Below are positions 33,147 to 54,390 of a DNA stretch of 64,000 nt, in pieces (the stretch's first letter is position 1; each line of letters begins with the position of its first letter). The translations under genes were made by a program, and so were the position numbers. The DNA comes from Burkholderiales bacterium (lineage in GTDB: Bacteria > Pseudomonadota > Gammaproteobacteria > Burkholderiales > Burkholderiaceae_D): the NCBI GenBank assembly GCA_016200895.1, contig JACQDX010000092.1, forward strand, positions 1 to 64,000, given 5' to 3'. Under the pieces are notes generated by a model. That model saw only the letters and a list, made by a program, of their open reading frames with translations, was not told where the DNA came from and did not search any database.

Positions 33147-33278
33147 GACACAGAGATTTTCTCTTTGGTTCTCCTCTGTGTCTCTGTGGTGTAGCAAGGG
33201 TTTCGAATGGCATGCCATTCGCTTGCGAAACGAAGGCTTCATGCAAGAAGCCTTTCCTCTCTCTGTGGTGAGAGGTTT
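33147..33278. repeat. CACAGAG-type repeat, copy 2, interrupted by a structured insert
   Basis: The left part (33147-33191) and right part (33261-33278) match the CACAGAG/CTCTGTG repeat family; a 69-bp insert (33192-33260) separates them. The 10-bp sequence CTCTGTGGTG occurs directly on both sides of the insert (33182-33191 and 33261-33270), like a target-site duplication. Confidence 0.65.
33192..33254 (-). mobile_element. 63-nt three-helix module, copy B
   Basis: On the minus strand: an 8-bp hairpin with loop TTGCAT (33254-33233), an 11-nt linker, a perfect 18-nt palindrome (33221-33204) and a 12-nt tail. Linker GCAAG pairs with tail CTTGC. It aligns without gaps to 54242-54304, and the two copies differ by paired, compensating changes in all three helices. 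It has no coding capacity. Confidence 0.7.
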
Positions 33279-33296
33279 TAGAAAAACGGAGACAGC

Positions 33297-33692
33297 ATGA
33301 AAAAAGGTTACAAGCAACTGGTTGATGAAGCCAATGCCGAGATCAAGACCTATAGCGTGGCAGAAGCCCAGGCCAAACTGGCAGACGCCAATGTACAGTT
33401 CATCGATGTGCGTGATATCCGCGAACTCGAACGTGAAGGCATCGTCCCCGGTGCCTATCATGCCCCACGCGGCATGATAGAGTTTTGGGTTGATCCTGAT
33501 TCACCTTATTTCAAACCTGTATTCGGCGAGAAAAAAGAATTTATTTTATTTTGTGCCGCTGGCTGGCGCAGTGCACTTACCACCAAGACCGTACAAGACA
33601 TGGGGCTGGAAAATGTCGCCCATATTGATGGCGGTTTTACTGCCTGGAAAGCCGCGGGTGCGCCAGTCGCCAACAAGGAAAGCAAGAAGTAA
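33297..33692 (+). CDS. Rhodanese-like domain protein
   Basis: The 131-residue product is a single rhodanese domain: YSVAEAQAKLAD, FIDVRDIRELEREGIVPGAYHAPRG, and the active-site loop ILFCAAGWRSALTT with the catalytic Cys near residue 84. These domains move sulfane sulfur or act as persulfide carriers in the cytoplasm. The loop Cys is intact, so it should be active. It is followed 2 bases later by a YchJ gene. Confidence 0.9.
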   Translation: MKKGYKQLVDEANAEIKTYSVAEAQAKLADANVQFIDVRDIRELEREGIVPGAYHAPRGMIEFWVDPDSPYFKPVFGEKKEFILFCAAGWRSALTTKTVQDMGLENVAHIDGGFTAWKAAGAPVANKESKK

Positions 33693-33694
33693 TA

Positions 33695-34078
33695 ATGAGC
33701 AGTAAAGCATGCCCCTGTGGCTCGAATAAAAATATTGAACAGTGTTGCGGCCAGTACATCAGCGGCGCAGCCCTTGCACCTTCGGCAGAAGCGCTGATGC
33801 GTTCTCGCTATACCGCGTATACCCTGAACGATGAAGCATATCTGCGTGCGACCTGGGATGAACGGACTTGTCCCAAGGAGCGCATTACGCATGGTGACCC
33901 GACCAAATGGCTGGGCTTGGAAGTAAAGAAATTCAAAGCTGATGGTGACGCGGCGACGGTAGAATTTGTTGCCCGTTACAAGATAGCTGGCAAAGCGCAC
34001 AGGCTGCATGAACTCAGCCGTTTTGTGCGCTATGAAGGCAAGTGGTTTTACGTGGATGGCAGTTTTCCAGAAAAGTGA
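33695..34078 (+). CDS. YchJ-family (UPF0225) SEC-C motif protein
   Basis: The 127-residue product begins with a SEC-C-like zinc site [16 protein letters not shown] (residues 6-21) and continues with the YchJ NTF2-like domain ([29 protein letters not shown]). The family's role is unknown; the zinc knuckle suggests protein or ribosome contact. It sits between the rhodanese gene and liuB and is probably co-transcribed. Confidence 0.88.
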
Positions 34079-34086
34079 AAAAGATA

Positions 34087-35709
34087 ATGACAACTTTAGA
34101 TTCCAAACTCAATCCCCGCTCTGAAGAATTCAAAGCCAATTCAGCGGCCATGCAAGCCGTGGTGGATGACCTCAAAGAAAAAATCACCAAAATTGCACTT
34201 GGTGGTGGCGATGAAGCGCGCAAGAAACATCTGGCGCGTGGCAAGCTCTTACCCCGTGACCGAGTACAAATGCTGCTTGATGCAGGCACGCCTTTCCTGG
34301 AGTTTTCGCAACTCGCTGCCTTCGACATGTACAAAGAAAAGAACGGTGCCGATGCCGCCCCGTCTGCCGGTGTCATCACCGGCATAGGCCGCGTGGCCGG
34401 GCAGGAATGCATCATCGTCTGTAATGATGCGACAGTTAAGGGCGGCACCTATTACCCTCTGACCGTCAAGAAGCATTTGCGTGCGCAAGAGATTGCCGAA
34501 CAAAATAATCTGCCCTGCATTTACCTCGTCGATAGCGGCGGCGCGAACTTACCTAATCAGGACGATGTTTTCCCTGACCGTGATCATTTTGGCCGCATCT
34601 TCTACAACCAGGCCAATATGTCGGCCAAGGGCATACCGCAAATCGCCGTGGTCATGGGTTCCTGTACTGCCGGTGGTGCTTATGTGCCAGCGATGAGTGA
34701 TGAATCCATCATCGTCAAGAACCAGGGCACGATTTTCCTCGGTGGCCCACCGCTGGTGAAAGCCGCCACTGGCGAAGTCGTCAGTGCTGAAGACCTTGGT
34801 GGTGGCGATGTGCATACCCGTCTGTCTGGCGTGGTAGATCATCTGGCACAAAATGATACGCACGCGCTGTCACTGGCGCGCACCATCGTCTCGCACCTGA
34901 ACCGCCAGAAGCCACAAACCGTGGTCATGAAAGAAGTTGAAGAACCGAAGTTCCCGGCATCAGAATTGTATGGCGTGATACCGGTCGATACCCGCAAGCC
35001 TTTTGATGTGCGTGAAGTCATTGCCCGCATCGTCGATGGCAGCCATTTCGATGAATTCAAGGCGCGTTATGGAGCTACCCTGGTCTGCGGTTTTGCGCAT
35101 ATCCATGGCATGCCGGTTGGCATCATCGCCAATAACGGTATCCTGTTTTCTGAATCGGCCTTGAAGGGCGCGCATTTCATAGAACTATGCTGCCAGCGCA
35201 AGATACCTCTGGTCTTCCTGCAAAACATCACTGGCTTCATGGTGGGGCGCAAATATGAAAACGAAGGCATCGCCCGCAATGGCGCCAAAATGGTGACCGC
35301 AGTGGCGACAGCGAATGTACCGAAGTTTACCGTCATCATCGGTGGTAGTTTTGGTGCAGGCAACTATGGCATGTGTGGCCGCGCTTACTCACCGCGCTTC
35401 ATGTGGATGTGGCCAAATGCGCGTATCAGCGTCATGGGTGGCGAACAGGCTGCCAGCGTATTGGCGACAGTAAAACGTGATGGAATAGAAGGCAAGGGTG
35501 GCAGTTGGTCAGCCGAAGAAGAGGCGGGTTTCAAACAACCGATCAAAGACCAGTACGAACACCAGGGTCATCCATATTATGCGTCCGCACGCTTGTGGGA
35601 TGATGGTGTTATCGATCCGGCAGATACCCGCATGGTTTTGGGTCTGGGCTTGTCGGCGGCCTTGAACGCACCGATACCGGATGTGAAGTTTGGCGTGTTC
35701 AGGATGTAA
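34087..35709 (+). CDS. liuB: 3-methylcrotonyl-CoA carboxylase, carboxyltransferase (beta) subunit
   Basis: The 540-residue product has the two crotonase-like carboxyltransferase halves, with [23 protein letters not shown] and [17 protein letters not shown] in the first and [20 protein letters not shown] plus [20 protein letters not shown] in the second. It carboxylates 3-methylcrotonyl-CoA using the biotin arm of LiuD (42.2 kb). I chose ATG 34087; the frame opens further upstream within the YchJ gene. LiuD is 6.5 kb away, separated by biotin genes. Confidence 0.95.
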
Positions 35710-35724
35710 GCTAAAGCATATTTT

Positions 35725-36216
35725 ATGGAAAAAACATATATTCCCTCCTTGTTAATGACTGGCCTTGCATTGATCGTCAGCGCCTGTGTGACTGCGCCTT
35801 ATGTAGCACCACAAAATGGTGCTGTCGCCGATCTGGCAATCAGAATTAAACCAGCCCAGGGGACGGGTTTTAATTTATATATTTACGACAATGCTGAGTC
35901 TTGCTCCGGTGCAAAGACTGTAATTGATGATGCGGGAAAAGTAAGTATTTCAGCAACTAAGCTGGTAGCGGATAAGTTGACAACCTTTGGGTATTCTGAA
36001 GTCATGGGTAATACCTCATGTAATATCAATTTCAGTTTTTTCCCTAACGCTGATCACATTTATGTACTTGATACTGTGACGGGTCGTCATAGATGTAGTG
36101 TACGCATAGTCGATGCAACAGATATTAAAAAGATGTTTGCCGTTCCGATGATCAACCGCACGGTAAATGGTGCCATGTGTGCGCCTTTGAAAAAAATAGA
36201 TCAGCCACCAAAGTAG
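35725..36216 (+). CDS. Predicted lipoprotein of unknown function
   Basis: The 163-residue product has a lipoprotein signal with lipobox VSAC (Cys near residue 21). The mature part has three or four further cysteines (AESCSG, TSCNIN, HRCSVR, GAMCAP) that could form disulfides. Codon use is more AT-rich than its neighbours and it separates liuB from liuC, so it may be a later insertion in the cluster. No family recognised. Confidence 0.72.
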   Translation: MEKTYIPSLLMTGLALIVSACVTAPYVAPQNGAVADLAIRIKPAQGTGFNLYIYDNAESCSGAKTVIDDAGKVSISATKLVADKLTTFGYSEVMGNTSCNINFSFFPNADHIYVLDTVTGRHRCSVRIVDATDIKKMFAVPMINRTVNGAMCAPLKKIDQPPK

Positions 36217-36289
36217 CCTGAAGGTTGTAGCGATAAAGATAATTGCTTATTAAGCGAACTGAATTCAGCAAGGAAGAGGCTGTATAAAA

Positions 36290-37069
36290 ATGGAAACTTT
36301 AAGTATAGAAATTGCAAATCACCTGGCTACAGTCACGCTTAACCGCCCTGATGTCCGTAATGCATTTAATGAAACAACCATAGCCGAAATCACTACAGTT
36401 TTTCGCAATTTGGATAAGGATGACAGCATTCGTGCTATTGTGCTGGCCGCGAATGGTCCTGCATTTTGTGCTGGCGCAGACCTGAACTGGATGAAAAAGA
36501 TGGCTGACTACACCCACGAGGAAAACCTCGCGGATGCCGGTCAGCTGGCAGAAATGCTGCATGCCATCTATAGCTGCAGCAAGCCGGTAGTTGCCAAAGT
36601 GCAAGGTGATTGCTATGCCGGTGGCATGGGTCTGGTAGCTGCTTGTGATATTGCGGTCAGTGTGGATACAGCCAATTTTTGCCTCAGTGAAGTCAAGTTG
36701 GGCTTGATACCGGCGACGATTTCACCCTATGTCATCAAGGCCATGGGTGAAAGCGCGGCGCGCCGTTATTTCATCACTGCCGAGCGTTTCACAGCGGCAG
36801 AAGCTCAGCGCACGGGCTTTGTCCATGAAGTGGTGGCTGCGGAGGCACTGGATGCCAAAGTGGCAGAGATCGTCAAGGCACTGAGCAGCAATAGCCCAAA
36901 TGCAGTGAAACAGGCCAAGCGTCTGGTTCAGGATGTGGCCAGCCGTGAATTAACACCAGCACTAATAGCAGCAACGGTAGAAGGTATAGCGCAGATCCGG
37001 GAATCTGAAGAGGGCCGTGAAGGTGTACGTTCCTTCCTGGAAAAGCGTAAACCAAACTGGTTAAGTTGA
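36290..37069 (+). CDS. liuC: Methylglutaconyl-CoA hydratase (enoyl-CoA hydratase family)
   Basis: The 259-residue product is a crotonase-fold enzyme: LNRPDVRNAFNE (residues ~18-29), the oxyanion loop ANGPAFCAGADLNWMKKM (~54-71), and GDCYAGGMGLVAACDIAVS with the catalytic Glu in SEVKLGLIPATI. The LNWMK motif is common in methylglutaconyl-CoA hydratases, and its position between liuB and liuD supports hydration of 3-methylglutaconyl-CoA to HMG-CoA in leucine degradation. Confidence 0.9.
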   Translation: METLSIEIANHLATVTLNRPDVRNAFNETTIAEITTVFRNLDKDDSIRAIVLAANGPAFCAGADLNWMKKMADYTHEENLADAGQLAEMLHAIYSCSKPVVAKVQGDCYAGGMGLVAACDIAVSVDTANFCLSEVKLGLIPATISPYVIKAMGESAARRYFITAERFTAAEAQRTGFVHEVVAAEALDAKVAEIVKALSSNSPNAVKQAKRLVQDVASRELTPALIAATVEGIAQIRESEEGREGVRSFLEKRKPNWLS

Positions 37070-37132
37070 ATCCTGCTTAAAGAGTAAATGTTAAGCAGGT
37101 GGCTAGAATAGAGTGGAAAGGAGCTGGCAAAG

Positions 37133-37669
37133 ATGAAAAAGCGTAGACTGGTATTGACAGGCCTGGGCGTATCTTTGCTGGCCGCAACGGGCGCTGTGAC
37201 TTACCGCAAGTCCACAGTCGTGATCACTTCGATAGCAGATATGCAGGCAAGACTTGCCAATCTGAAATTGGATAAACTAGGCAGCCTATCCGGCTGGCAG
37301 CCCTATAAAGTCTTTGTGCATCTGGCGCAGAGCATAGAGTATTCGATGACGGGCTATCCGGAAATGAAGTCGGCAGCCTTCCAGCATACAGCAGGCAGTG
37401 CGGCCTTTTATGCTTTTTCAGTGGCCGGTGCGATGACACATAATCTGACTGAACCTATACCAGGTGCACCTGCCATTGCTGAGAGTGGTGATGTCAATGC
37501 TGGCATCGATATGCTGATTGCGGCATTACAAAAATTTGAAAACCATGCGGGTGAAATCAAACCGCATTTTGCTTATGGCAGTTTGAGCAAGGCAGAGTTT
37601 GCCCAGGCCCATGTCATGCATATAGAAAATCATTTGAAGCTCATCAAGTCCACGCAATCTGTGGCTTGA
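37133..37669 (+). CDS. DUF1569 (DinB-like) protein
   Basis: The 178-residue product has a hydrophobic N-terminus (VLTGLGVSLLAATGAVTY, possible signal anchor or Tat-like with KKRR) and the DUF1569 core with VHLAQSIEYSMTGYPEMKS and a C-terminal HVMHIENHLK. Histidines (H62, H156, H160 region) could bind a metal as in DinB folds. Function unknown. The ATG follows AAAGGAGCTGGCAAAG. It sits between liuC and bioA. Confidence 0.72.
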   Translation: MKKRRLVLTGLGVSLLAATGAVTYRKSTVVITSIADMQARLANLKLDKLGSLSGWQPYKVFVHLAQSIEYSMTGYPEMKSAAFQHTAGSAAFYAFSVAGAMTHNLTEPIPGAPAIAESGDVNAGIDMLIAALQKFENHAGEIKPHFAYGSLSKAEFAQAHVMHIENHLKLIKSTQSVA

Positions 37670-37710
37670 GTCTGGTATGAACTGAGCTTCAATCGTAAAA
37701 TTTGTCTGGA

Positions 37711-39048
37711 ATGAATTTGAATCAAGAAAATGACTGGGTAGCACGTAGCCTGCAACATGTATGGCACCCGTGTACTCAGATGCAGCATCATGAAACCGTG
37801 CCGCTGATCCCCGTCAGCCATGGCCGCGGTGCATGGCTGTTTGATATGGAAGGCAAGCGTTATCTTGACGCCATCAGCTCCTGGTGGGTCAATTTGTTTG
37901 GCCACGCCAATCCACGTATCAATGCAGAATTGAAAGACCAGCTCGATAAGCTTGAACATGCGATGCTGGCCGGTTTTACCCATGCGCCTGTCGTCGAGTT
38001 GTCGGAAAAATTGTCGGCCCTGACTAATCATGCACTCGGCCATTGCTTCTATGCGTCGGACGGTGCATCGGCTGTCGAGATCGCCCTGAAGATGAGTTTC
38101 CATGCCTGGCGCAATGGTGGCCAGACTGAAAAACAAGAGTTTATTTGCATACAGGGCAGCTACCATGGTGAAACCGTGGGTGCATTGGCAGTGACCGATG
38201 TCAGCCTGTTCCGCGAAGCCTATGGGCCGATGCTGCAGCGTGCCCACGTCGTCGCTTCACCGGACGCACGTCTGGCTGAAGCGGGTGAAACTGCCGCCGA
38301 TGTGGCCTTGCGCGCAGCCGCTGCACTGGAAGCAAAATTGCAGGAGCGCGCAGGCAAGATTGCTGCCGTCATCATAGAACCGCTGGTGCAGTGCGCCACT
38401 GGCATGGCCATGCACGATCCTGTGTATCTGAAGCGCTTGCGCGAATTGTGTGACCAGTATCAGGTGCATCTGATCGCCGATGAAATTGCCGTAGGCTGTG
38501 GCCGCACCGGCACTTTCTTTGCGTGTGAATCAGCGGCTATCTGGCCTGACTTTTTATGTCTGTCTAAAGGCATCAGCGGTGGCTATTTGCCGCTGTCGCT
38601 GGTGATGACGACAGACTCTGTCTACCAGGCATTTTATGATGCCGATGTAAGACGCGGCTTTTTGCATTCGCATTCCTATACCGGCAATCCGCTGGCATGC
38701 CGCGCAGCGCTGGCAACACTGGCGATTTTTGAAGATAACAAGGTCTTGCAAAACAACCGTGTCAAGGCAGACTTCTTGAACATTGCTTTTGCAGACTTGA
38801 AAAATGATGCGCGCGTGCGCCACTTTCGCCAGCAAGGCATGATCCTGGCCTTTGATGCCGTGGTCGATGATGCAGAACGTGCAGCGACATTTTCGCGCCG
38901 TTTTTTTGCTGCGGCTTTGCAGCAAGAATTATTAATGCGGCCCATAGGCCGCACAGTCTATATGATGCCACCCTACATCCTTGAACAGGATGAAATGAGC
39001 TTGCTGGCACATAAAACCAGACTGGTATTTGAAGAGGTAATGGCATGA
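37711..39048 (+). CDS. bioA: Adenosylmethionine-8-amino-7-oxononanoate aminotransferase
   Basis: The 445-residue product is a class III PLP aminotransferase converting KAPA to DAPA in biotin synthesis, using S-adenosylmethionine as amino donor. Signatures: HVWHPCTQMQ (~13-22), SSWWVNLFGH (~48-57), the cofactor Lys in LCLSKGISGGYLPLS (~280), and HSHSYTGNPLACRA. Its stop overlaps the bioF start by four bases. Biotin genes here serve the biotin-dependent LiuD downstream. Confidence 0.95.
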   Translation: MNLNQENDWVARSLQHVWHPCTQMQHHETVPLIPVSHGRGAWLFDMEGKRYLDAISSWWVNLFGHANPRINAELKDQLDKLEHAMLAGFTHAPVVELSEKLSALTNHALGHCFYASDGASAVEIALKMSFHAWRNGGQTEKQEFICIQGSYHGETVGALAVTDVSLFREAYGPMLQRAHVVASPDARLAEAGETAADVALRAAAALEAKLQERAGKIAAVIIEPLVQCATGMAMHDPVYLKRLRELCDQYQVHLIADEIAVGCGRTGTFFACESAAIWPDFLCLSKGISGGYLPLSLVMTTDSVYQAFYDADVRRGFLHSHSYTGNPLACRAALATLAIFEDNKVLQNNRVKADFLNIAFADLKNDARVRHFRQQGMILAFDAVVDDAERAATFSRRFFAAALQQELLMRPIGRTVYMMPPYILEQDEMSLLAHKTRLVFEEVMA

Positions 39049-40325
39049 CAGATGCTAGCAAAAACAATCCTGGCATAAATAATCCTGGAATAAGAATAGC
39101 CACGCAACGCAAATCCCTGATACAGGGTTTGCAGCAAGAGCTTGCCGCACTGGATCAAAAACATTTATTGCGCCAGAGGCGCACGGTAGAAACGCCGTCA
39201 GCTCCGAACATGAAAGTCGATGGCCGTGACTTGCTGGCGTTTTGTAGCAATGATTACCTGGGTCTGGCAGCACATCCAAAACTGGCAGAGGCCATGCAGG
39301 AAGGCGTAGCGCTGTACGGTGTAGGTAGTGGCGCCTCGCACCTCATCAGCGGCCATAGCCGCGCCCATGCCGTGCTGGAAGAACGCCTGGCCGAGTTTGT
39401 CTCACCACATATAGACAATGCCCGTGCCCTGTATTTTTGCACAGGTTATATGGCCAATCTGGCTGTCATTACGGCGCTGGCCATCAATAAAGACACGACA
39501 GTATTTTCTGAAGCCCTGAACCATGCTTCGCTGATAGATGGTGCGCGTCTCTCGCGTGCCACCGTGCAGGTCTTCCCGCACCGCGATTACACTGCGCTGG
39601 AACGGATGCTGCAACAATGCAAGACCAAGCACAGGGTCGTTGTCACTGACAGTGTCTTCAGCATGGATGGCAATATTGCAGAGCTGGGTGTTCTGCTGGC
39701 AATTTGCGAGCGCTATGATGCCTGGCTCATTGTTGATGATGCCCATGGTTTTGGCGTCCTTGGTGAACATGGCCGTGGCGTGCTGGAGCACCTGAATATC
39801 AAGTCACCCAACCTGGTGTACATGGGTACGCTGGGCAAGGCCGCCGGTGTCGGTGGTGCCTTTGTCGCTGCCGATGCGACAGTCATAGAATGGCTGGTAC
39901 AACGCGCCCGTGCTTACATTTATACGACTGCTGCCGCACCGGCACTGGCGCATGCGCTGTTAACCAGCATCGATATCATTGCTGGCGAAGAAGGCCAGCA
40001 AAGACGTGCACATTTACAGAAACTGATAGCCCTGTTTAGCGATGGCCTGCACTTGCAAGTCTGGCAGGGCATGCCCTCTGACACAGCGATACAACCCGTC
40101 CTCATTGGCGACAATGCCGCCATGCTGAGGGTAGCTGGCAATCTCATGGACCAGGGCTTGTGGGTAGGTGCAATACGCCCGCCTACCGTGCCTGTCGGTA
40201 CGGCACGCCTGCGCGTGACCCTGTCTGCTGCGCATACAGAAATCCAGGTACTGCAACTGGTGCAAGCCATTAATCGCCTGGACCAGATGAGTTATGTGGC
40301 CCAGTGTTTTGCAGAGGTGGCCTGA
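39045..40325 (+). CDS. bioF: 8-amino-7-oxononanoate synthase
   Basis: The 426-residue product is an alpha-oxoamine synthase condensing pimeloyl thioester with alanine to KAPA. Signatures: FCSNDYLGLAAHP, GVGSGASHLISGHSRAHAVLEE, DSVFSMDGNIAEL, DDAHGFGVLGEHGRG and the PLP Lys in MGTLGKAAGVGG near residue 265. The N-terminus is longer than usual by ~30 residues. It overlaps bioA by ATGA and bioD by one base. Confidence 0.95.
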   Translation: MTDASKNNPGINNPGIRIATQRKSLIQGLQQELAALDQKHLLRQRRTVETPSAPNMKVDGRDLLAFCSNDYLGLAAHPKLAEAMQEGVALYGVGSGASHLISGHSRAHAVLEERLAEFVSPHIDNARALYFCTGYMANLAVITALAINKDTTVFSEALNHASLIDGARLSRATVQVFPHRDYTALERMLQQCKTKHRVVVTDSVFSMDGNIAELGVLLAICERYDAWLIVDDAHGFGVLGEHGRGVLEHLNIKSPNLVYMGTLGKAAGVGGAFVAADATVIEWLVQRARAYIYTTAAAPALAHALLTSIDIIAGEEGQQRRAHLQKLIALFSDGLHLQVWQGMPSDTAIQPVLIGDNAAMLRVAGNLMDQGLWVGAIRPPTVPVGTARLRVTLSAAHTEIQVLQLVQAINRLDQMSYVAQCFAEVA

Positions 40326-41020
40326 TGCAAAAGCGGCAGCATGATTTTTTCGTGACAGGCACCGATACTGAAATCGGCAAGACCCTGATCAGCGCTGCCA
40401 TGCTGCATGCGATGCAGGCGCAAGGTTTACAGGCAGTGGGCATGAAGCCTATAGCTGCCGGTGCAGAAATGCGCGACGGCGTCTTGCATAATGAAGATGT
40501 AGACATGCTGGTCGTCGCTGCCAGCGTCAAGGCAGAATTGGCGCTGGTATGTCCTTATCTGATGCAGACACCTGCTGCGCCGCATATCGTGGCTGAGCTG
40601 GAACATGTAAAGATAGAACTACCGCATATCGTCAACAGCTATCAGCAATTGCGTGAGCAGGCAGATGCCGTGGTAGTGGAAGGTGTAGGTGGTTTTTGTG
40701 TACCCCTGAATGCGCAAGTGACCACCGCAGACATGGCGCAAGCCCTGGGTTTGCCCGTGATACTGGTGGTTGGCATGCGTCTCGGTTGCATCAATCACGC
40801 ACTGCTGACTGTCGAAGCCATCGCCGCGCGCGGCCTGATACTGGCAGGCTGGGTTGCCAATACCGTTGATGCCAACATGCTGTACCCGGAAGAAAATAGT
40901 CGCGCCCTGCGTGAACGCATAGCAGCACCCATGCTGGGGCATATTCCCCGTTTGAATGTTCCTGATCACGAGAAGGCAGAAGTCGCCGCCTCGTATCTGG
41001 ATTTGAGTCAATTGAAGTAA
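40325..41020 (+). CDS. bioD: Dethiobiotin synthetase
   Basis: The 231-residue product closes the ureido ring of dethiobiotin from DAPA, CO2 and ATP. The P-loop is FVTGTDTEIGKTL (residues ~9-21), KPIAAG contains the catalytic Lys (~41), and VEGVGGFCVPL holds the Mg-binding Glu (~114). ATG 40325 overlaps the bioF stop as TGATG, so translation is coupled. bioB follows after 12 bases. Confidence 0.94.
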   Translation: MQKRQHDFFVTGTDTEIGKTLISAAMLHAMQAQGLQAVGMKPIAAGAEMRDGVLHNEDVDMLVVAASVKAELALVCPYLMQTPAAPHIVAELEHVKIELPHIVNSYQQLREQADAVVVEGVGGFCVPLNAQVTTADMAQALGLPVILVVGMRLGCINHALLTVEAIAARGLILAGWVANTVDANMLYPEENSRALRERIAAPMLGHIPRLNVPDHEKAEVAASYLDLSQLK

Positions 41021-41032
41021 AAGGAAACAAAG

Positions 41033-42061: not shown

Positions 42062-42079
42062 TTAAAGCCATAAATTTTC

Positions 42080-45163: not shown

Positions 45164-45330
45164 TTATTGCAACTAATGCAACAAGAAATGAAAAGCAAAA
45201 AAATGTTAACTTTTTCCTTGTTACTTGCAATTTCATGAACTACATTGGGGTAACGGTGCTTCGCATGAGGCACTGTGGTTGATGTTCTGCCCGATGAATA
45301 AGAAGTAGCCCATAGGGAAAATATCAGCAT

Positions 45331-45433
45331 TGTTTAAAGGCAAACCACCCGAAAGCGTGGGACGCAAAACTAAAGGGCCCTCGCTAAACTCGGCAGGGTA
45401 GCCAGGTACCGTAATCCGCATAGACGGTTTTTC
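45331..45433 (+). promoter_or_regulatory. Cyclic di-GMP-I (GEMM-I) riboswitch
   Basis: The conserved core is plain: GGCAAACC, a GAAA tetraloop hairpin (CCACCC-GAAA-GCGTGG), GGGACGCAAAAC, CTAAAC and the receptor-side GGTAGCCAGGTACCG ending at 45411. Just after it, ACCGT (45408-45412) can pair with ACGGT (45424-45428) followed by TTTTC, a possible terminator that would compete with the aptamer's 3' strand. It lies 20 bases before the first gene of the chemosensory operon. The rest of 45164-45452 holds no gene. Confidence 0.93.
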
Positions 45434-45452
45434 GTTAAGAGGTAGGTCGCTC

Positions 45453-46361: not shown

Positions 46362-46390
46362 GGCCAGTATCAATTTATATTTTTACCTTG

Positions 46391-46412
46391 GCCCTGAGGA
46401 TCAGGGCGTTTC
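46391..46412 (+). terminator. Possible intra-operon attenuator
   Basis: GCCCTGA (46391-46397), loop GGA, TCAGGGC (46401-46407), then GTTTCA. It lies between the two response regulator genes. The T run is short, so it may only reduce read-through or protect RNA ends. Confidence 0.4.
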
Positions 46413-46436
46413 ATCTACACATCTCGGGAGTACATC

Positions 46437-46802
46437 ATGGGCATGAAAAAAGCACTCGTTGTTGACGATTCCACTACTGAACTGGCCAACATCAAAAGCA
46501 TATTGACAGATGCCGGTTATGTGGTGATCACCGCATCTAGTGGCAAGGATACGTTGGAAAAAGCCAAGGCCGAAAAACCCTCGATTATTTTCCTCGACAT
46601 CGTCATGCCTGAGATGGATGGTTATGAAGCCTGCCGCAGCCTGACGCAAGACCCGGCAACCAAGGACATCCCCATCGTTTTTGTCAGCAGCAAATCACAA
46701 AAAGCCGACAAGATCTGGGGGCAGTTGCAAGGTGCCAAAGGCTATGTCGCCAAGCCATATACAGCGGACCAGATTATTGATCAGCTCAAAATCGCTGCCT
46801 GA
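46437..46802 (+). CDS. pilH: Single-domain response regulator (PilH-like)
   Basis: The 121-residue product is one receiver domain: ALVVDDSTTEL, phosphoacceptor in IIFLDIVMPEMDG near residue 53, FVSSKSQKADK and AKPYTADQI with the conserved Lys. In the Pil-Chp system PilH works with PilG downstream of the CheA-type kinase to control twitching motility and related responses. ATG follows CGGGAGTACATC. Confidence 0.9.
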   Translation: MGMKKALVVDDSTTELANIKSILTDAGYVVITASSGKDTLEKAKAEKPSIIFLDIVMPEMDGYEACRSLTQDPATKDIPIVFVSSKSQKADKIWGQLQGAKGYVAKPYTADQIIDQLKIAA

Positions 46803-46862
46803 TTACAAACTCCTTAAGCTCCTCAAATTCCTCAAACTCTTTACCCACGCACGGGGGCGGTC

Positions 46863-47408
46863 ATGAGCCAAGTCACTTCCAGCAATGCCGGGCAGTCTAA
46901 AGAATGGCTGCCACCCAGCGTTGCTCTGGAACGTTTCACCCCACCCGGTGATTTGTTGTGGAGCGATGTGGCACCGCTAGTCGAAAGAAAGCGTTATGGT
47001 TACCGCGTGGGGTCGCTGAATTTACTGATCAGGGCCGAGGTAGGGAGCGAAGTGATACGGCCACAGGCGCTTGCTCCCTTGCCTGGTGCTGCCGCTTTTT
47101 TGCTTGGCCTGATCAACCTGCGCGGCAATCTGGTTCCTATCTTTGACCTGGGCCTGGTACTCAGTGGTCGCAGGTCTGAAGTCACTGGATCGAAATTGTT
47201 TTTAATACTGGACAAGGCAGAAAATGCCGTCGGCATGCTGATAGACAGTTATCCGCAACCGCTGACAGAATTGCGCACGATTACACAAATGCCGCAATTG
47301 CCAGCAACACTGGAAGCCCATGTAACGGCTGCCTTCGTCAAGGATGACAAGGTCTGGCTGGATTTCAATCATGAAAGTTTTTTTGAAAAACTCAGTCGCA
47401 GTGCATAG
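46863..47408 (+). CDS. pilI: CheW-like coupling protein (PilI-like)
   Basis: The 181-residue product is a CheW domain (~45-175): YRVGSLNLLIRAEVGSEVI, LPGAAAFLLGLINLRGNLVPIFDLGL, and LILDKAENAVGMLIDSYPQP. It links the chemoreceptor to the CheA kinase in the cytoplasm. Its place between pilH-like and pilJ-like genes is the standard order of Pil-Chp operons. Confidence 0.9.
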   Translation: MSQVTSSNAGQSKEWLPPSVALERFTPPGDLLWSDVAPLVERKRYGYRVGSLNLLIRAEVGSEVIRPQALAPLPGAAAFLLGLINLRGNLVPIFDLGLVLSGRRSEVTGSKLFLILDKAENAVGMLIDSYPQPLTELRTITQMPQLPATLEAHVTAAFVKDDKVWLDFNHESFFEKLSRSA

Positions 47409-47496
47409 AGCATAGAACTTTAAGCAAAATCTGGCTGCCCCCTTCTGTTGATTTGACCAAGCAGTCTTTGTTGATGTTTCTCTTGTGGAGAGCAAA

Positions 47497-49302
47497 ATGA
47501 AATTACGTACTCCGAATATTGGTATCCGGCTCAGTCTGGGATTTACAGCGGTGTTACTGCTGTTGGCGGTAACGGCCTGGCTGGCGATGTCCAACCTCAA
47601 GAGCATCAATGAAGGTACTCACCGTATTGTGGATGGTAGCTATCCTAAGGTGGTACTGGCGTACAAGATGCTGGGTAATGTCAATGCCAATGCGCGTTCC
47701 ATGCGTAATATGCTGCTCTTGAATGAGCAGTCTGCGATTGAAAAAGAACAGCAATTGATTTTGTCACGCAGACAAAACCAGGATGATAATATCGCTAATT
47801 TTGAAAAACTGATTGTCAGTGAAGAAGAAAAAGGCATCTTCCAGATAGCGACCGAAGCGCGTACCAAATATGGTGCTTCACAAAGGGAATTTTTGCGTCT
47901 GGCGACTGAAGGTAAAAAGACTGACGCCACCAACTGGTTGCTGGGCAATTTGCAAGCCGATCAGGAAAAATGGTTTGCTTCCATGGATAATCTGATCGAC
48001 TACCAAACCAAACTGGTGAACAAGGATGGTGCCGCAGCCGACAGCACCTACCTGAGCGCAAAAAATGTGTTGGCCGTGGTAGCCGTGCTCTCCATCTTGC
48101 TGGCGGCCGGCGTTGCTTACTGGATGACGCGCAGTATCACCAAACCGGTATCGCATCTGATCGCCGTTATGCAGAAATTGACGCAGGGTGATGCCACGGT
48201 CAGGGCACGCAGCAATCATCCCGACGAAATTGGCAAACTGTCGCGTCAGTTTGACAAGATGGTGGATGAACGTGAAGCCAGCCGCAAATTTATCGAAGAT
48301 GAAAATGAAAAACTCAATGAATCTGTATTGGTCTTGTTGCAGGCGGTGGCGCAGCTCGCGAGCAGGGATCTGACAGTGAAAGTGCCGGTATCTGCTGACG
48401 TGACAGGCGCGGTATCTGATGCCTTGAACATGCTGACCAGTGAAACTGCCAAAGTGCTGCGTGATGTAAGTAATATTTCTGCTGACGTGACCGAGGCAAC
48501 GCTGAAAGTGAAAGCCCAGTCCGACAACGTGATGGCAGCGGCAGCAGAGGAAAGGCTGGAAGTGGAACATACGACCTTGTCACTCTCGAATGCCTCTGAA
48601 GAAATGCGCAATATTGCCGACCTGGCACAAAACTGCAACCGTGCTGCTGACAATGCCATACGCTCAACACAACTGGCGATGGATACGGTAAACAGCACCG
48701 TGGGTGGTATTAACAGTACCCGCGACATCATACGCGAAACAGAAAAACGGATTAAACGCCTGGGCGAACGTTCGCAAGAAATTTCCGGCGTGGTCGGTCT
48801 GATCAATGCGATTGCAGAACGTACTCATATCCTGGCGCTGAATGCGAGTATGCATGCGGCATCAGCAGGTGAAGCAGGTCGTGGCTTTGCGGTGGTTGCA
48901 GATGAAGTGCAAAGGCTGGCTGAAAATGCACGGCAAGCGACGTTGCAAATTTCTGGCCTGGTCAATAACATCCAGCTGGAAACTTCAGATACGGTCAACA
49001 CCATGAACTCTGCAATTGCCCAGGTGGTGGAAGGCAGCCGTCTGGCAGAACAAGCCGGTCTGCAAATGCAGGCAACGCAAAATGCCACTACTGAGCTGGT
49101 GGAATCTGTACAGCAAATTGCCATCAAATCCCATGGTCAGGCCAAGGCCAGCCAGGAATTGCTGGACAGAGCGATACAGATCAAGAAAACCAATCAGCAA
49201 ACCAGTTTGCAACTCGATGAACAATCGGCACAAACCACCAATCTGGTGGAGTATGCAAGGATGCTTTTGTCTACTGTGCGCGTATTCAAACTGGCTGCCT
49301 GA
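47497..49302 (+). CDS. pilJ: Methyl-accepting chemotaxis protein (PilJ-like)
   Basis: The 601-residue product has a membrane segment (~10-32), a periplasmic four-helix bundle (~35-190), a second membrane segment (~190-212, VLAVVAVLSILLAAGVAYWM), a HAMP domain (~212-265) and a long cytoplasmic signalling coil. The hairpin tip is GLINAIAERTHILALNASMHAASAGEAGRGFAVVADEVQ, where this class uses THILALNA. ATG 47497 follows GTGGAGAGC; a GTG 12 bases earlier is possible. Confidence 0.92.
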   Translation: MKLRTPNIGIRLSLGFTAVLLLLAVTAWLAMSNLKSINEGTHRIVDGSYPKVVLAYKMLGNVNANARSMRNMLLLNEQSAIEKEQQLILSRRQNQDDNIANFEKLIVSEEEKGIFQIATEARTKYGASQREFLRLATEGKKTDATNWLLGNLQADQEKWFASMDNLIDYQTKLVNKDGAAADSTYLSAKNVLAVVAVLSILLAAGVAYWMTRSITKPVSHLIAVMQKLTQGDATVRARSNHPDEIGKLSRQFDKMVDEREASRKFIEDENEKLNESVLVLLQAVAQLASRDLTVKVPVSADVTGAVSDALNMLTSETAKVLRDVSNISADVTEATLKVKAQSDNVMAAAAEERLEVEHTTLSLSNASEEMRNIADLAQNCNRAADNAIRSTQLAMDTVNSTVGGINSTRDIIRETEKRIKRLGERSQEISGVVGLINAIAERTHILALNASMHAASAGEAGRGFAVVADEVQRLAENARQATLQISGLVNNIQLETSDTVNTMNSAIAQVVEGSRLAEQAGLQMQATQNATTELVESVQQIAIKSHGQAKASQELLDRAIQIKKTNQQTSLQLDEQSAQTTNLVEYARMLLSTVRVFKLAA

Positions 49303-49370
49303 TACCACCTCTGGCCTGCGCGAGAACTCGCGTAGGTTTCTCTCTTTCCAACTTACCCATCTGAGGCAGT

Positions 49371-52300
49371 ATGGAACAGCTAGAAAACCATGCTACAGAT
49401 TTTAGTCATATCGTCCTCGGTGCCCTGGATGAGGTATTCAATGCGCTGGAAGCCGATGCCGCTCATTCTACTGATGTCGCCGTAGTCACCCGCGCACTGG
49501 CTTGTTATATAGAACAATTGCGTCGCATACGCGCAGCAGCCAGCGCTGCTGACATGCCTGGCCTGCACTGGGTGTGCGCGCTGATAGAACGTAATCTGAT
49601 CAGTCTATATAACCAGAACCGCCGTCTCAGTGACGAAGAATATCATCTGCTCAGTGAATGGCCGGATTTGCTGGCCAGCCATGCCCTGAATCACGGCGAT
49701 AAAAACATAGAAACCCTGATCGACCATTTATCGACAGCAAGTTGGCCCATGCCTTTGAGTCATAGCGATTCTGGAGAATTACGGCAGTTACTCAATACAG
49801 ATCCGCTGACACCGGTAGCTGAGGTGGAAGAGCCGCCACCGCTGTTTCTGGTACATGCTGTTGCTTCAACTGAGATCGAGACTACTGTAGAGCAGCAAGA
49901 AGACATGCAGGCAGCAGCCATGCCAGAAGAAATACCTGAGGCCGCGGATGTGCAAGCATCTTCAGCGTTGCATGAAGCTCTCGATGCGCTGATCATGACG
50001 CTGGCAGCAGACGAACATTTCGGCCAGGGTGGTGCAAGCGATGCAGCAATCCTGCAATCTTATGCTGGGCAGTTATTGGCTTTCTCCAGCTGTGCAACAC
50101 AGCTTGACATGCATGCCGTGGCTGATGCCTGCCATGCTTTTGCTGATGTGCTCAGCCTGAGATCAGCGAGCGAAGATGTGCTGGCTGAAACCGAGCTGGG
50201 TGCTTTGCAGCGTTTTCCGCTCATGCTGATGGACAGCATCGCCGATGCAGACAATCCCGAAGCCGTAGCGAGCTTGCTGGATGTTGTTTATGACCCGGCA
50301 TGGAACCGGCAAGAACCCGTCAATGGCGCGCACTACACTGAGCTGCAACAAAGTGAGCAAAGTGAGCAAAGTGATCAAATTGTTCAGGCCGGTCAGGAAT
50401 CCAGCATCGCCATGCAAGAAATCAGTAGCGACATGCTGGCGCTGTTTGCCAAAGAATTCAACCTCATGGGCGATATGCTGGCAGAAGACCTGGCAGCAGT
50501 CGTAGCAGCTAGTGATGATGAAGAACAGCGCAGTCTTGCGTTGCAAAACTATGTCGAAGCCCTGCTGCGTATCGCCACTACTTCCGAATCGATAGGCCTG
50601 ACGGCGCTGCACAAATTTTTGTCGCTCTTTGCTGGTGTAGTGGCAACACAAACCCAGGCATTGAATGAACAGCAGGCCAGCCTGTTGAGCGAATTGCCTG
50701 CCAGGCTGAATACTTACTTGAATGCGCCTGAAGAAGAAATCGCCGCGCTGGAATTATTGTCATTGCTGATGGACCCTTGCTGGTCACAGGCAACAGTTAT
50801 GGAGGGTAATGAATCCCTGTTTTCTGAACTGATCAATATCAAGCTGATAGAAGACCATCATGATGAAGAAGAGATCGCCGTTGCGATCACGCAAAGCGAT
50901 GTGTCCATACAATTGCCTGATGATTTAAATACCGAATTATTTGACGGCCTCTTGCAGGAATTACCGATACAGGTAGGCAGCTTTACCAGTGCCATAGAAA
51001 AATTTTCCAACGGTGCTGGCAGCATGCAGGATGTTGAACAAGCCAAGCGGGCTGCACATACGCTCAAGGGTGCTGCCAATACCGTAGGTATTGCCGGTAT
51101 CGCCAACCTGACTCATCATCTGGAAGACTTGTTGATTGCCCTCAGCAATAAGCAAAGCCTGCCCGACCAGGCATTGGCAGAACTGTTGACCGAAGCAGGG
51201 GATTGCCTGGAAGCCATGAGCGAAGCCGTGGTTGATGGCGGTGTTGCCCCAGCGCAGTCACAACAAGTCTTGCAGCAGGTCTGCGACTATGTAAGCTATA
51301 TGAATAGCGGTGAATTTGTCGTGCGCAATGAGCCTGTACCATCAAGTCAGTCAGTGGCAGTAACTTCCGCAAGCTCAGCAGCACAGTCTGCGAGCGTGGT
51401 ACTTGATCTGGTTGAGCCTGGTTCACATGCTGCTGAACCGATGTTGCGTGTACCTGCGAAAGTGGTCGATGAATTGTTACGCCTGGCCGGCGAAAATGTC
51501 ATCTCGAATGCACAAATCCAGGAGCAATTGAAACAAACACAGAAACAATCGAAAGCCATACAAAAACACGATGTCCTGTTCCAAAAACTCATCGCCGATC
51601 TTGAAACCCTGGTCGATGTGCGCGGCATGAGCAGCCCACAGAAAAAAGCCAGTATCAGCACTACCGATGGCGATTTTGATCCACTGGAGTTTGAGCGCTA
51701 TAGCGAGCTGCATACCATCACGGCACAATTGGTGGAAGCACGCACCGATGCTTTTGAGATGTCCAATCATATAGACGAACAATTGCATGGCCTGGCGGAA
51801 TTGCTGGAAGTGCAGCGCCGCCTGCAAATGGAAAACCAGCACGCTGTAATACGCACACGCCTGGTGCCGGTGACCACTATAGTCTCGCGCCTGCAGCGCA
51901 GTGTACGTCAGACTTGCCGTTTGCTCGACAAACAGGTGAACCTGAATATACTCGGTGCAAATACCAATATCGATAGCAATATGCTCAATGATCTGACCGA
52001 TCCCCTGATGCATATCCTGCGTAATGCTGTTGACCACGGTATAGAAACTCCAGCCAGCAGGCTAGCTGCGAACAAACCGGCAGATGGTCTGATAGAACTG
52101 AGCTTTGCCCGGGAAGGTAATTCCATCGTAGTGCGTTGCAAGGATGATGGCGCCGGTCTTGATTACGCTGCCATACGTCGTACTGCCTTGAAACGCAAGA
52201 TGATCAGCGCTGAGCGTATTTTGTCTGAAGAAGAATTGGCCAGGCTGATCCTGATACCAGGTTTTTCTACCAGGGATAGCAGCACCCAAACCTCTGGCCG

Positions 52301-53264
52301 TGGCATAGGCATGGACATGGTGCATGCGCGCATACTGGAAATGAAAGGCTCGCTGAACCTGCGTTCTGTCGCCGGTCAGGGCCTGGTGGTGGAATTGCGC
52401 CTGCCCGCCAGCCTCTTGTCTGAACATACCCTGATGGCGCGTGTGGCCGGCCATATGATGGCCATATCCAGCCGCCGTATTATTGACATCCATTACATCA
52501 CCGATGCACAAATTGATACGCTGGCTGATCAGCCGGTCTACCGCGTTGGTGATGCTGTCCATAAATTGCTGCAGCTGGATCAATTGCTGGGTATGCAGGA
52601 CCATCGCAAAGAAGCACGCAGCTATGGCTACCCGGTCTTGCTGGTCAGTACCGATACCGGGGCGACCTGTGCAATACAAGTGCAGGAACTGGTCGATGGC
52701 CGTGAAGTCGTGGTCAAGAAATTTGGCCGCTATGTGCCAAAAATCCAGGGCACCATAGGTGCGGTTATTCTGGGTGATGGTAGTGTCGCACCAGTCATTG
52801 ATTTGCCAGAATTATTGCGTGCATCTACCCAGCAGTATATCAATGTCGACGATGCCCATACTGGCATACCTTCGCAAACTGATCATCAGGCAGCACATGT
52901 GCGGACAGCGCTGGTGGTCGATGATTCATTGTCAGCTCGCCGCGCCACCGCGCAAATCATGCGCGATGCCGGTTATGAAGTGCGTACCGCCATTGATGGC
53001 CTGGATGCGGTTGCCATCCTTGATGAAATAATACCTGATGTGATTTTGGTAGACATGGAAATGCCGCGCATGAATGGCCTGGAGTTGACCAGCCATGTAC
53101 GCGCCCGCAAACTCGACAAGCGCATTCCCATCATCATGATCACCTCACGTTCCACCCAAAAACACAGGCAACAGGGCGATGCAGTCGGGGTGGATGCTTA
53201 CCTCGTCAAACCCTTCAGCGAAGATGCCTTGCTGCAGCATATCAACCGTCTGACAGGAGCCTGA
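49371..53264 (+). CDS. chpA: Hybrid CheA-type histidine kinase/response regulator (ChpA-like)
   Basis: The 1297-residue product has two or more N-terminal Hpt-like helical modules (degenerate in the first ~500 residues), an Hpt with AAHTLKGAANTVG (phospho-His near residue 563), a dimerisation/HATPase unit (VRTRLVPVT; HILRNAVDHGIETP near 880; RGIGMDMVHARI), a CheW-like domain (~1010-1150) and a C-terminal receiver (VVDDSLSARRA near 1180, Asp in ILVDMEMPRMNG). It is the kinase of the Pil-Chp pathway. Most of the early Hpt domains lack the His motif. Confidence 0.93.
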   Translation: MEQLENHATDFSHIVLGALDEVFNALEADAAHSTDVAVVTRALACYIEQLRRIRAAASAADMPGLHWVCALIERNLISLYNQNRRLSDEEYHLLSEWPDLLASHALNHGDKNIETLIDHLSTASWPMPLSHSDSGELRQLLNTDPLTPVAEVEEPPPLFLVHAVASTEIETTVEQQEDMQAAAMPEEIPEAADVQASSALHEALDALIMTLAADEHFGQGGASDAAILQSYAGQLLAFSSCATQLDMHAVADACHAFADVLSLRSASEDVLAETELGALQRFPLMLMDSIADADNPEAVASLLDVVYDPAWNRQEPVNGAHYTELQQSEQSEQSDQIVQAGQESSIAMQEISSDMLALFAKEFNLMGDMLAEDLAAVVAASDDEEQRSLALQNYVEALLRIATTSESIGLTALHKFLSLFAGVVATQTQALNEQQASLLSELPARLNTYLNAPEEEIAALELLSLLMDPCWSQATVMEGNESLFSELINIKLIEDHHDEEEIAVAITQSDVSIQLPDDLNTELFDGLLQELPIQVGSFTSAIEKFSNGAGSMQDVEQAKRAAHTLKGAANTVGIAGIANLTHHLEDLLIALSNKQSLPDQALAELLTEAGDCLEAMSEAVVDGGVAPAQSQQVLQQVCDYVSYMNSGEFVVRNEPVPSSQSVAVTSASSAAQSASVVLDLVEPGSHAAEPMLRVPAKVVDELLRLAGENVISNAQIQEQLKQTQKQSKAIQKHDVLFQKLIADLETLVDVRGMSSPQKKASISTTDGDFDPLEFERYSELHTITAQLVEARTDAFEMSNHIDEQLHGLAELLEVQRRLQMENQHAVIRTRLVPVTTIVSRLQRSVRQTCRLLDKQVNLNILGANTNIDSNMLNDLTDPLMHILRNAVDHGIETPASRLAANKPADGLIELSFAREGNSIVVRCKDDGAGLDYAAIRRTALKRKMISAERILSEEELARLILIPGFSTRDSSTQTSGRGIGMDMVHARILEMKGSLNLRSVAGQGLVVELRLPASLLSEHTLMARVAGHMMAISSRRIIDIHYITDAQIDTLADQPVYRVGDAVHKLLQLDQLLGMQDHRKEARSYGYPVLLVSTDTGATCAIQVQELVDGREVVVKKFGRYVPKIQGTIGAVILGDGSVAPVIDLPELLRASTQQYINVDDAHTGIPSQTDHQAAHVRTALVVDDSLSARRATAQIMRDAGYEVRTAIDGLDAVAILDEIIPDVILVDMEMPRMNGLELTSHVRARKLDKRIPIIMITSRSTQKHRQQGDAVGVDAYLVKPFSEDALLQHINRLTGA

Positions 53265-53266
53265 TC

Positions 53267-53767
53267 ATGGGAGCGATGATGCCGGGTATGACAACAGAAG
53301 TACGTAACCGCCTGTTGCTGTGTATAGATGGCATGCGACTCATGCTGCCACAAGGAGATATCTGTGCGGTGGAATCCGTCGCTGACCTTGATAGTCAGGA
53401 TGCGCTTGCGCCAGCTGTTGGCCGGATCGCTTATCTGGGACAAAGTTGGCCAGTATTAAGCCTGAATGGTGAATTGCAGACGCTGGGCAACATACCAGCG
53501 GCACGCCGAGCCTGTGTCATGCTGGCTACTGGCAAAGGCTTTCTTGGCCTCTTGTGTGATGATGTCAGAGTGCTCAATCAGCAGTCAGGTGCCGATTATG
53601 CCTTGCCTGTTGCCATGCGTGCTGCTAACACACCGATACAGGCAATCATGCCCTTTGAAAACGGTCTCGCCTGTCTTAGCGATGCCAGGCATTTATTGCA
53701 ATATGGTGGCTTTGCACAACTTACATCAACTCCTGCTAACACCATAGAGAGGCTTGAACATGTCTAG
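53267..53767 (+). CDS. CheW-like protein (ChpC-like)
   Basis: The 166-residue product is a CheW-type domain (LLLCIDGMRLMLPQGDICAVESV, GRIAYLGQSWPVLSLNGEL, GFLGLLCDDVRVL). It starts two bases after the chpA stop and overlaps the next gene by 8 bases. It probably couples further receptors or proteins to the kinase. Confidence 0.82.
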   Translation: MGAMMPGMTTEVRNRLLLCIDGMRLMLPQGDICAVESVADLDSQDALAPAVGRIAYLGQSWPVLSLNGELQTLGNIPAARRACVMLATGKGFLGLLCDDVRVLNQQSGADYALPVAMRAANTPIQAIMPFENGLACLSDARHLLQYGGFAQLTSTPANTIERLEHV

Positions 53768-54191
53768 TGCAAATGCCTGGTTACTGGATGTGGGCGATGG
53801 CAAACAAGTCGCCATAGGCCAGCGTGAGCTGATACAAATCATGGATGCTCAAGACAGCTTTGAGGTACCACTTGCGCCAGCGTATATGCGGGAAGTGATT
53901 TTCTGGCAAAAACGCGCCGTGCCCGTCGTGCAATTACCTGTACGTCTGGGCGGCAAGGCTTGCACAGGTAATATCCTAGCTTTGGTGGCGTTTCATGATG
54001 CTGCCAGCAATACTGCAGGCTTGGGTGCAATACATTTAGCGGCACCGCCGGTGCGCGTGCTGGTCGACGATAATCAGGCCAGCAGTCTCGATGAACCAGG
54101 CTGGGGCGACATGGCAATTTCCTGTTTTGAGCAACAGGGGCAAAGCATACCTGTGCTGGATTTGAGTCGTCTGTTTGCCGCCGTGCATTAA
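53760..54191 (+). CDS. Second CheW-like protein at the end of the operon
   Basis: The 143-residue product has weak CheW character (VAIGQRELIQIMDAQDSFEVP, MREVIFWQKRAVPVVQLPVRLG, ending SIPVLDLSRLF). The start ATG lies in the last codons of the preceding gene, giving an 8-base overlap. A MITE-like element starts 7 bases after its stop. Assignment rests on operon position as much as on sequence. Confidence 0.7.
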   Translation: MSSANAWLLDVGDGKQVAIGQRELIQIMDAQDSFEVPLAPAYMREVIFWQKRAVPVVQLPVRLGGKACTGNILALVAFHDAASNTAGLGAIHLAAPPVRVLVDDNQASSLDEPGWGDMAISCFEQQGQSIPVLDLSRLFAAVH

Positions 54192-54197
54192 CACTAA

Positions 54198-54390
54198 TAG
54201 GATTTACGCAAAATTGTCCCAGCAAGGCTATCGCTTTAGGGAACCTCTCTTGCAAGAGAGGTTTGTTCCGTTGGCGGACAACATGTTGTCCGAAACCCCA
54301 ACTATACCGTAGCGACGAAGACAGTACTTTAGTACGCAGCTCCTGGGAGAGGAGCTGCAACGCAGCCGGGGCGGTTTTGCGTAAGCCCTA
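54198..54390. mobile_element. MITE-like palindromic element, copy with insert
   Basis: A 193-bp inverted copy of the element at 18609-18722 with ends TAGGATTTACGCAAAA and complement. After CAGCAAGGC it carries an extra 80 bp (54229-54308) absent from the other copy, then resumes with GTAGCGACGAAG. It fills the gap between the CheW gene and the convergent response regulator gene. Confidence 0.8.
54242..54304 (+). mobile_element. 63-nt three-helix module, copy A
   Basis: It contains an 8-bp hairpin with loop TTGCAA (54242-54263), an 11-nt linker, a perfect 18-nt palindrome (54275-54292) and a 12-nt tail. Linker GTTGG (54270-54274) pairs with tail CCAAC (54298-54302). It aligns without gaps to the minus strand of 33192-33254. 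It lies inside the MITE-like copy and has no coding capacity. Confidence 0.7.

Follow-up and report, generated by a model that had tools for sequence, protein, structure and literature searches.

The window analysed here, a stretch of 64,000 nt from contig JACQDX010000092.1 (assembly GCA_016200895.1) of a Burkholderiales bacterium, carries two copies of a 70-nt module whose fixed shape and freely changing stem letters point to a small mobile element of an undescribed kind. The module is probably a non-autonomous mobile DNA resembling the repetitive extragenic palindromes (REPs) and their doublets (REPINs), inserting mostly into hairpin loops. Its fold was established by covariation, its copy number is high and its host sequences are many; filled and empty sites were cleanly distinguished, and pairing is maintained at single loci.

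Copy A lies at 54239..54308 on the plus strand (profile search, alignment and a covariance model score of 89.1 bits) and copy B at 33188..33257 on the minus strand (DNA and profile searches, 86.9 bits). The initial annotation, which had described a module of 63 nt, was right about the positions and about the gap-free alignment of the two copies with each other; the conserved unit is 70 nt. In copy A, hairpin 1 (54242..54263, 8 bp, loop TTGCAA) is followed by the 5' arm of helix 3 (54270..54274, GTTGG), a palindrome hairpin with the centre CATG (54275..54292) and the 3' arm of helix 3 (54298..54302, CCAAC), all on the plus strand; the two hairpins are supported by alignment, covariation and fold, and helix 3 by alignment and covariation. 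The corresponding parts of copy B, on the minus strand, are hairpin 1 with the loop TTGCAT (33233..33254), the helix 3 arms GCAAG (33222..33226) and CTTGC (33194..33198) and the palindrome hairpin (33204..33221), placed by alignment and, for the two hairpins, also by fold. Helix 3 and the palindrome are set apart by a one-sided unpaired stretch and together form an imperfect palindrome with a bulge; on the bottom strand the order is GGTGNAG, lower helix, one-sided bulge (GGTTTC) and free upper stem. Hairpin 1 and the palindrome differ in centre, length and surroundings, and are not two inverted copies of one REP. No terminal inverted repeats of the module's own were seen. Eleven base pairs were said to differ between the copies, and a recount of the rows by eye gave the same number, all changed on both sides (four in hairpin 1, four in the palindrome and three in helix 3). 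Folded alone with RNA parameters, each copy adopted these helices (z-scores of -4.66 for A and -4.07 for B), and none of 200 shuffles folded as well.

Covariation was measured on several sets of copies. A covariance model, R1, was built from 47 hand-picked copies collected by BLAST and a sequence-only profile; besides duplicates, five full or nearly full matches (L007, L014, L025, L027 and L066) and two copies truncated at contig ends (additional units of L026 and L028) were left out. Of 935 pair cells in these 47 copies, 94.8% hold standard pairs; shuffles reach 77.2% and slid versions 24.5 to 45.4%. These nulls are not tree-based, and a comparison of orthologous loci stood in for a tree-based one. 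Changes on both sides were present in 17 of the 20 pairs, including four of the five pairs of helix 3, and RNAalifold alone returned the identical three helices. An order-wide set of 125 matches from 96 loci, whose alignment was fitted to the covariance model and hence leans towards it, was 96.9% paired, and both partners had changed in 19 of 20 pairs. Scanning all loci collected yielded 250 copies, 240 of them distinct, and Watson-Crick pairs filled 4519 of the 4800 cells of the distinct ones; the scorer required at least 14 of 20 Watson-Crick pairs and at least 15 of 23 conserved letters, which inflates the pairing levels and leaves the ratio among mismatches unaffected. In the 240 distinct modules the letters of the helices vary freely, and conserved in more than 90% of them were C26 G27 T28 T29 C31, C44 A45 T46 G47, A55 A56, C59 and C67 A68 C69 C70; largely the same letters were invariant or nearly so in the 47-copy alignment. 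These counts support the constant architecture with swapped stem letters that had been proposed from the two copies in the window.

The module is abundant in its genome. As DNA queries, the repeat that encloses copy A (element A) and copy B gave 59 matches, in pieces, and 46 matches, mostly short, respectively. With R1, 70 matches were obtained at E < 0.001, two of them partial, and 109 up to E 1, the remainder being mostly single hairpins read on the other strand. Chance is excluded by the 70 matches in the same genome together with the covariation counts. Among the genomes sampled, with the window's own counted in the genus and order sets, R1 matched 30 of 36 in the genus, 1 of 24 in other families of the order and 25 of 399 across the order; of 369 drawn from the class it matched 4, namely the window's own and three with weak matches. 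A pattern scan of named genomes found at least 109 stretches with the module. Among the matches listed were the genera Undibacterium, Massilia, Rugamonas, Pseudoduganella, Herbaspirillum, Lacisediminimonas, Glaciimonas, Solimicrobium, Methylophilus and Propionivibrio, as well as unnamed Burkholderiales and others, and in Undibacterium and its relatives the module often occurs dozens of times per genome. The absence of further copies with the same layout from related genomes had been named in advance as a refutation; hundreds were found.

In genome G027, all 34 copies lie outside the third of the chromosome that surrounds the skew-inferred terminus (about 2.8 Mb); this interval, from about 1.67 to 3.69 Mb, was chosen post hoc. 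A consensus query gave no match in phages and plasmids. One module, a pattern match, is present on a viral contig from IMG/VR (L560:7163-7207) inside a CCCTCTCCC-type hairpin, and adjoins a 664-aa open reading frame (ORF) and further ORFs that resemble tail genes, without an NCBIfam match. Rfam gave no match over the modules in the window, nor over those in nine loci at a lax threshold, where six sub-threshold matches fell elsewhere in two of the loci, off the modules. The literature search, which included short sequence strings and covered the longer result lists in part, found no description of the module, and no named family was found to fit it. Elsewhere in the window, Rfam matches at the gathering score were a c-di-GMP-I riboswitch aptamer (45329-45413) and a P9 small RNA, of a family named from Pseudomonas (13848-13925, minus strand).

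Both copies in the window lie inside larger repeats with inverted ends. Copy A is carried by element A (54199..54389), which resembles a miniature inverted-repeat transposable element (MITE), is flanked by TA and has the inverted ends GGAYTTACGCAAAA..TTTTGCGTAAGYCC, placed by eye. Within it, an 80-bp unit (54229..54308, plus strand) may be present or absent, and forms head-to-tail arrays elsewhere in the genome. Copy B sits in a CACAGAG-type inverted-repeat element, element B (33140..33279, approximate ends by eye). The initial description of two unrelated repeats was an understatement, as the module occurs in many host contexts, mostly inverted repeats by eye. Hosts in the genus comprise the TA-flanked element A (ends GGACTTACGCAAAA), the CACAGAG element B and at least four further inverted-repeat families; in G021 the hosts are CGTC-tagged repeats and CCCTCTCCC-type hairpins, in Massilia they are GCGGAT-type repeats, and further hosts are arms adjoining tmRNA or tRNA genes. 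At L240, L241, L237 and L283, modules lie just downstream of tmRNA genes, amid T-arm-like hairpin copies and terminators. Nesting in hairpins was often observed but is not universal, and some copies (for example L277 and L301) lie in sequence without a visible repeat.

Natural empty sites, the comparison of which had been called for, exist for element A, element B and the repeats of G021. Element A carries none, one, two or more head-to-tail 80-bp units, always at one fixed point. As had been noted for copy A, the segment 54229-54308 is an insert: it is missing from a sister element without the module at 18609..18724 on the minus strand. At the locus of copy A, the whole of element A is absent in four close relatives. 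The locus of copy B, downstream of an acyl-CoA dehydrogenase gene, was compared in G000, G004, G019 and G027 (30 of 37 such loci were read): module and host repeat are both present in G000 and G004, and in G019 and G027 the host repeat is present and the module absent. At that locus G034 has a different hairpin, itself matched weakly (33.7 bits). CGTC-tagged repeats of G021 are split exactly by the module, and their uninterrupted form is present in the same genome. At these filled and empty pairs, no target duplication was found beyond an ambiguous single C. The 10-bp direct repeat previously noted around copy B is real, and was rejected as a target-site duplication because its inner repeat is the module end CTACAC running into the host CACAGAG. 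Tandem arrays repeating the module with roughly 36-113 bp of flank were seen at L225, L228, L291 and L328, besides the bare 80-bp arrays.

A mechanism can be proposed for the REP-like mobile DNA. One strand, probably the bottom strand that starts with GGTGNAG, would fold into a bulged hairpin (helix 3 and the palindrome, with the GGTTTC bulge) and the plain hairpin 1. A trans-acting enzyme would read this fold together with short conserved unpaired letters, cut at the module ends and rejoin the piece at new sites. Very often the piece would land in the loop of a hairpin repeat already present, as a rule with no duplication of the target, and copies would also spread as passengers of MITE hosts. 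By analogy with known systems, we tentatively favour a folded strand that is moved by an HUH-type enzyme acting in trans, and a transposase of the Y1/HUH type is a first guess for that enzyme. In the window's own genome (93.8% complete), three PF01797 matches were found, all at contig ends, near-identical and IS200-like, one of them named IS200. PF01797 was matched in 38 of 39 genomes of the genus, including G005, G011, G023 and G030, which are module-free by R1. Many of these matches are longer and weakly scoring, and we take them to be similar to REP-associated tyrosine transposases (RAYTs; one ORF was read). A RAYT was considered as a partner and rejected; at 29 of these Y1-type transposase loci of the genus, R1 returned nothing convincing.

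Several observations weigh against the module being such an element. No REP-type transposase was seen in the window's own genome, at the completeness given above, and the matches of R1 at the 29 Y1-type loci were two weak ones (E 0.5 and 1). IS200/IS605 elements use the lagging-strand template (PMC6006769), and in G027 the 34 copies are divided 19 to 15 between the replication strands, a hand count in which copies borne by MITEs dilute the test. In the 240 distinct modules, T65 was present in 220, A66 in 135 and C67 in 225 (the letter list of the scorer contained positions 67-70 but neither 65 nor 66); many modules have the GTAG form, yet with one free position in place of a strict tag, and the adjoining GGTG is conserved. 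Tests for an inverted repeat around the module were significant for 15 of 40 flank clusters (31 of the 76 copies tested, from a total of 239), and with 60-nt arms for 55 of 243 copies versus 37 of 729 mismatched pairings and 6 of 231 far flanks; these tests, with arms of 60 and 90 nt, were too blunt for the long arms of element A, and single linkage placed 163 of 239 copies in one cluster. At five loci, unlike in IS200/IS605, direct repeats of at least 24 bp flank the module, the right-hand one abutting its end: 27 bp at L332 and 36 bp at L328, which share one gene tail; 61 bp at L291, in a tandem array; and 27 bp at L558 and 24 bp at L553, on either side of one tRNA gene. The modules may have arrived in two ways, or later rearrangement may have produced these long repeats. 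The filled and empty pairs are compatible with excision as well as with insertion. Compensation at single loci, described below, agrees equally with mobility and with a function at the site itself, and at L498/L441 and L012 sequence may have been exchanged with other copies. The modules of L553 and L558 (G739, from another order) are weak-scoring, and their direct repeats are the end of that tRNA gene.

Another reading, possible though less probable than the REP-like one, is a separate order-wide class of mobile DNA, served by some enzyme, which would prefer hairpin loops to a sequence as its target, and whose stems would evolve by compensated change at each locus. Its two-hairpin strand might, again doubtfully, nest in the apex of REPs, MITEs, terminator-like repeats and tRNA- or tmRNA-like arms to give a three-way junction with any host stem. 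Equally tentative is the idea that this class would leave direct repeats of at least 24 bp at some gene ends.

Change at single orthologous loci was followed in five close genomes with 210 copies (G000 69, G004 43, G034 33, G019 33 and G027 32). Both outer flanks matched in 26 orthologous pairs, of which five were dropped for length and six for near flanks that did not align; among the 120 pairs of the latter six, 17 changes were double, 22 were single and 5 were double but unpaired. At the 15 kept loci, the near flanks differ at 267 of 1706 sites (15.7%). The 300 stem pairs of these loci showed 12 double changes that were still Watson-Crick, 18 single changes and 2 unpaired double changes, as against about 2 double paired and 79 single expected from the flank rate; three of the 15 loci have an uncorrected one-base shift near the 3' end, which adds false changes. 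At L498/L441, double changes affected three palindrome pairs and one helix 3 pair, and there were no single changes. Other hairpins of at least 7 bp at the same loci, used as a control, had 14 double and 47 single changes in 549 cells, compared with 27 double and 23 single in 500 for the module hairpins, each locus pair being taken in both directions, so that these counts are not independent. Pairing is guarded in place, and more so than in neighbouring hairpins.

Plain hairpins can be guarded either by selection or by arm-templated correction. The latter, in which replication slips across hairpins and copies one arm to the other, or copies exchange sequence, would require no selection on the fold, and is unlikely as the full explanation. 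It would account for the nearly strict Watson-Crick pairing and for the compensation in the other hairpins of the same loci. Also in its favour, the outer arms of element A in seven orthologous pairs had 4 double and 24 single changes in 175 (L015/L449, one base out of register, adds 1 double and 8 single). Exchange is suggested by the palindromes of L498 and L441, which occur in 4 and 2, respectively, of 368 distinct modules (themselves included), the other carriers being in G004, G019 and L266, with none among the same-genome copies examined, and by the hairpin 1 stem of L012, which is found in 11 of the 368 and is shared by several G000 copies. Against this, the hairpin 1 stems of L439, L065 and L493 are in no other of the 368 modules, and exchange was rejected as their source, no donor having been found. 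Copying across would moreover destroy the conserved one-sided bulge of helix 3, yet four of its five pairs covary; the module hairpins are more compensated than the others, and the conserved unpaired letters and the architecture would be left unexplained. Selection is favoured because the split helix 3 covaries across copies, and part of the covariation may come from arm-templated correction or from exchange between copies. The proposal of selection on folded single strands stands in that the shape is kept, but selection alone may not make the covariation, since other hairpins are also compensated.

A structured RNA, such as a small RNA or an untranslated-region element, carried by MITEs and kept for its RNA fold, is less probable still. 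It would be concordant with three covarying helices with conserved loops and linkers, with the stable fold and with the compensated changes at single loci, which suggest a function in place. However, among the 4800 cells of the 240 distinct modules, 58 were G-U and 122 C-A, so that G-U made up 1.2% of cells for the top strand and no more than 2.5% for the bottom strand, against 22 of 206 (10.7%) in tRNA stems of the loci collected. The tRNA control used acceptor and anticodon stems from ARAGORN drawings, which omit mismatched pairs, and repeated loci were kept. The orientation of flanking genes was also mixed: 58 copies were co-directional with the bottom strand, 43 with the top strand, 51 convergent and 26 divergent, without a clear strand preference among these 178 classified copies (of 319; ORF calling was crude, and 100 of the 319 were placed within ORFs of at least 100 aa). 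Such a distribution is that of a promoter-avoiding repeat without transcript orientation. The modules are also without Rfam matches, as noted above. Because G-U pairs are rare and no transcript orientation was seen, folded DNA is preferred over RNA, and the initial alternative of RNA or transposing DNA tips towards DNA, with the clean empty and filled sites pointing the same way. On the top strand C-A outnumbers G-U by 122 to 58, and by 80 to 54 once the outermost pair is set aside (p 0.03, for cells that are not independent), a hint that it is the bottom strand, 5' GGTGNAG, that folds. That single-stranded DNA is the working form, and which strand folds, we infer.

A double-strand binding site for a nucleoid protein, gyrase or regulator, with the two palindromes read by a dimeric protein, is very unlikely. 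REPs and bacterial interspersed mosaic elements are said to bind several proteins (PMC2817692), both hairpins of the module are perfect or near-perfect palindromes with the conserved centres TTGCAA and CATG, and none of the copies in G027 lies around the terminus. Yet a dimer would fix the letters of the half-sites, whereas the arms of the module change together to any letter and stay complementary, and helix 3 is no contiguous palindrome. A bare cassette-type recombination site like an integron attC, moved as a folded single strand by a tyrosine recombinase, would share variable stems, tandem arrays and frequent hairpin targets with the module and is scarcely credible: the core boxes of attC read RYYYAAC..GTTRRRY, and the module has no such conserved letters, its helix 3 varying (GTTGG/CCAAC in A, GCAAG/CTTGC in B) and being in the opposite order.

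The hundreds of copies, with structure fixed and stem sequence free, amount to a natural experiment in which it can be asked whether palindromic repeats are kept by selection on the folded strand or by the copying of hairpin arms. If mobile, the module would be a repeat living inside other repeats, and how REP-like elements move, and by which enzyme, would be within reach of experiment in cultured Undibacterium species.

Among known systems, palindrome-associated derivatives of IS200/IS605 have two subterminal hairpins, make no target duplication and preserve the target, which allows tandem insertion. The module is similar in its two hairpins, its insertion without target duplication and its tandem units. 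It differs in that no fixed target tetranucleotide was established and in that its stems vary between copies of one genome; no clear strand bias was seen among the 34 copies of G027, with the dilution by MITE-borne copies noted above. Unlike a MITE, it has neither terminal inverted repeats of its own nor a target-site duplication at the filled and empty pairs.

In REPINs, a REP doublet is one replicating unit, with compensatory changes in the spacer hairpin and tandem clusters that include flanks (PMC3116915). The module likewise has two hairpins as one unit, compensatory changes and tandem clusters with flanks; however, REPINs have two inverted copies of one REP, and the module has two unlike hairpins in fixed order, with all three helices covarying. 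Dimers of small-hairpin REPs, in families tagged with GTAG or CGTC, were described by Di Nocera in 2013 in A. variabilis, T. roseum and H. neapolitanus, where they lie within larger palindromes; one of the species also has empty target palindromes, and some families have degenerate tags (PMC3733652); the names Massilia, Herbaspirillum and Burkholderia are absent from the main text of that paper. The module resembles these dimers in lying inside larger palindromes with empty targets. For the REPs of E. coli, TnpA-REP needs the GTAG foot and an unpaired bulge, and the sequence of the upper stem can be swapped (PMC8266576). The module shares with them a GNAG-like tag that comes first, followed by a bulge-interrupted palindrome with a free upper stem whose structure is needed, and, like them, is intergenic and present in many copies without coding capacity. 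In contrast to the E. coli type, its tag GGTGNAG has one free letter, it has a second, different hairpin and sits inside other repeats, and its own genome has only IS200-like Y1 transposases, with no convincing module at the 29 Y1-type loci. A strict tag, a doublet and a link to a transposase were each tested for and not found, and we class the module as a variant of the REP-like elements, not a member.

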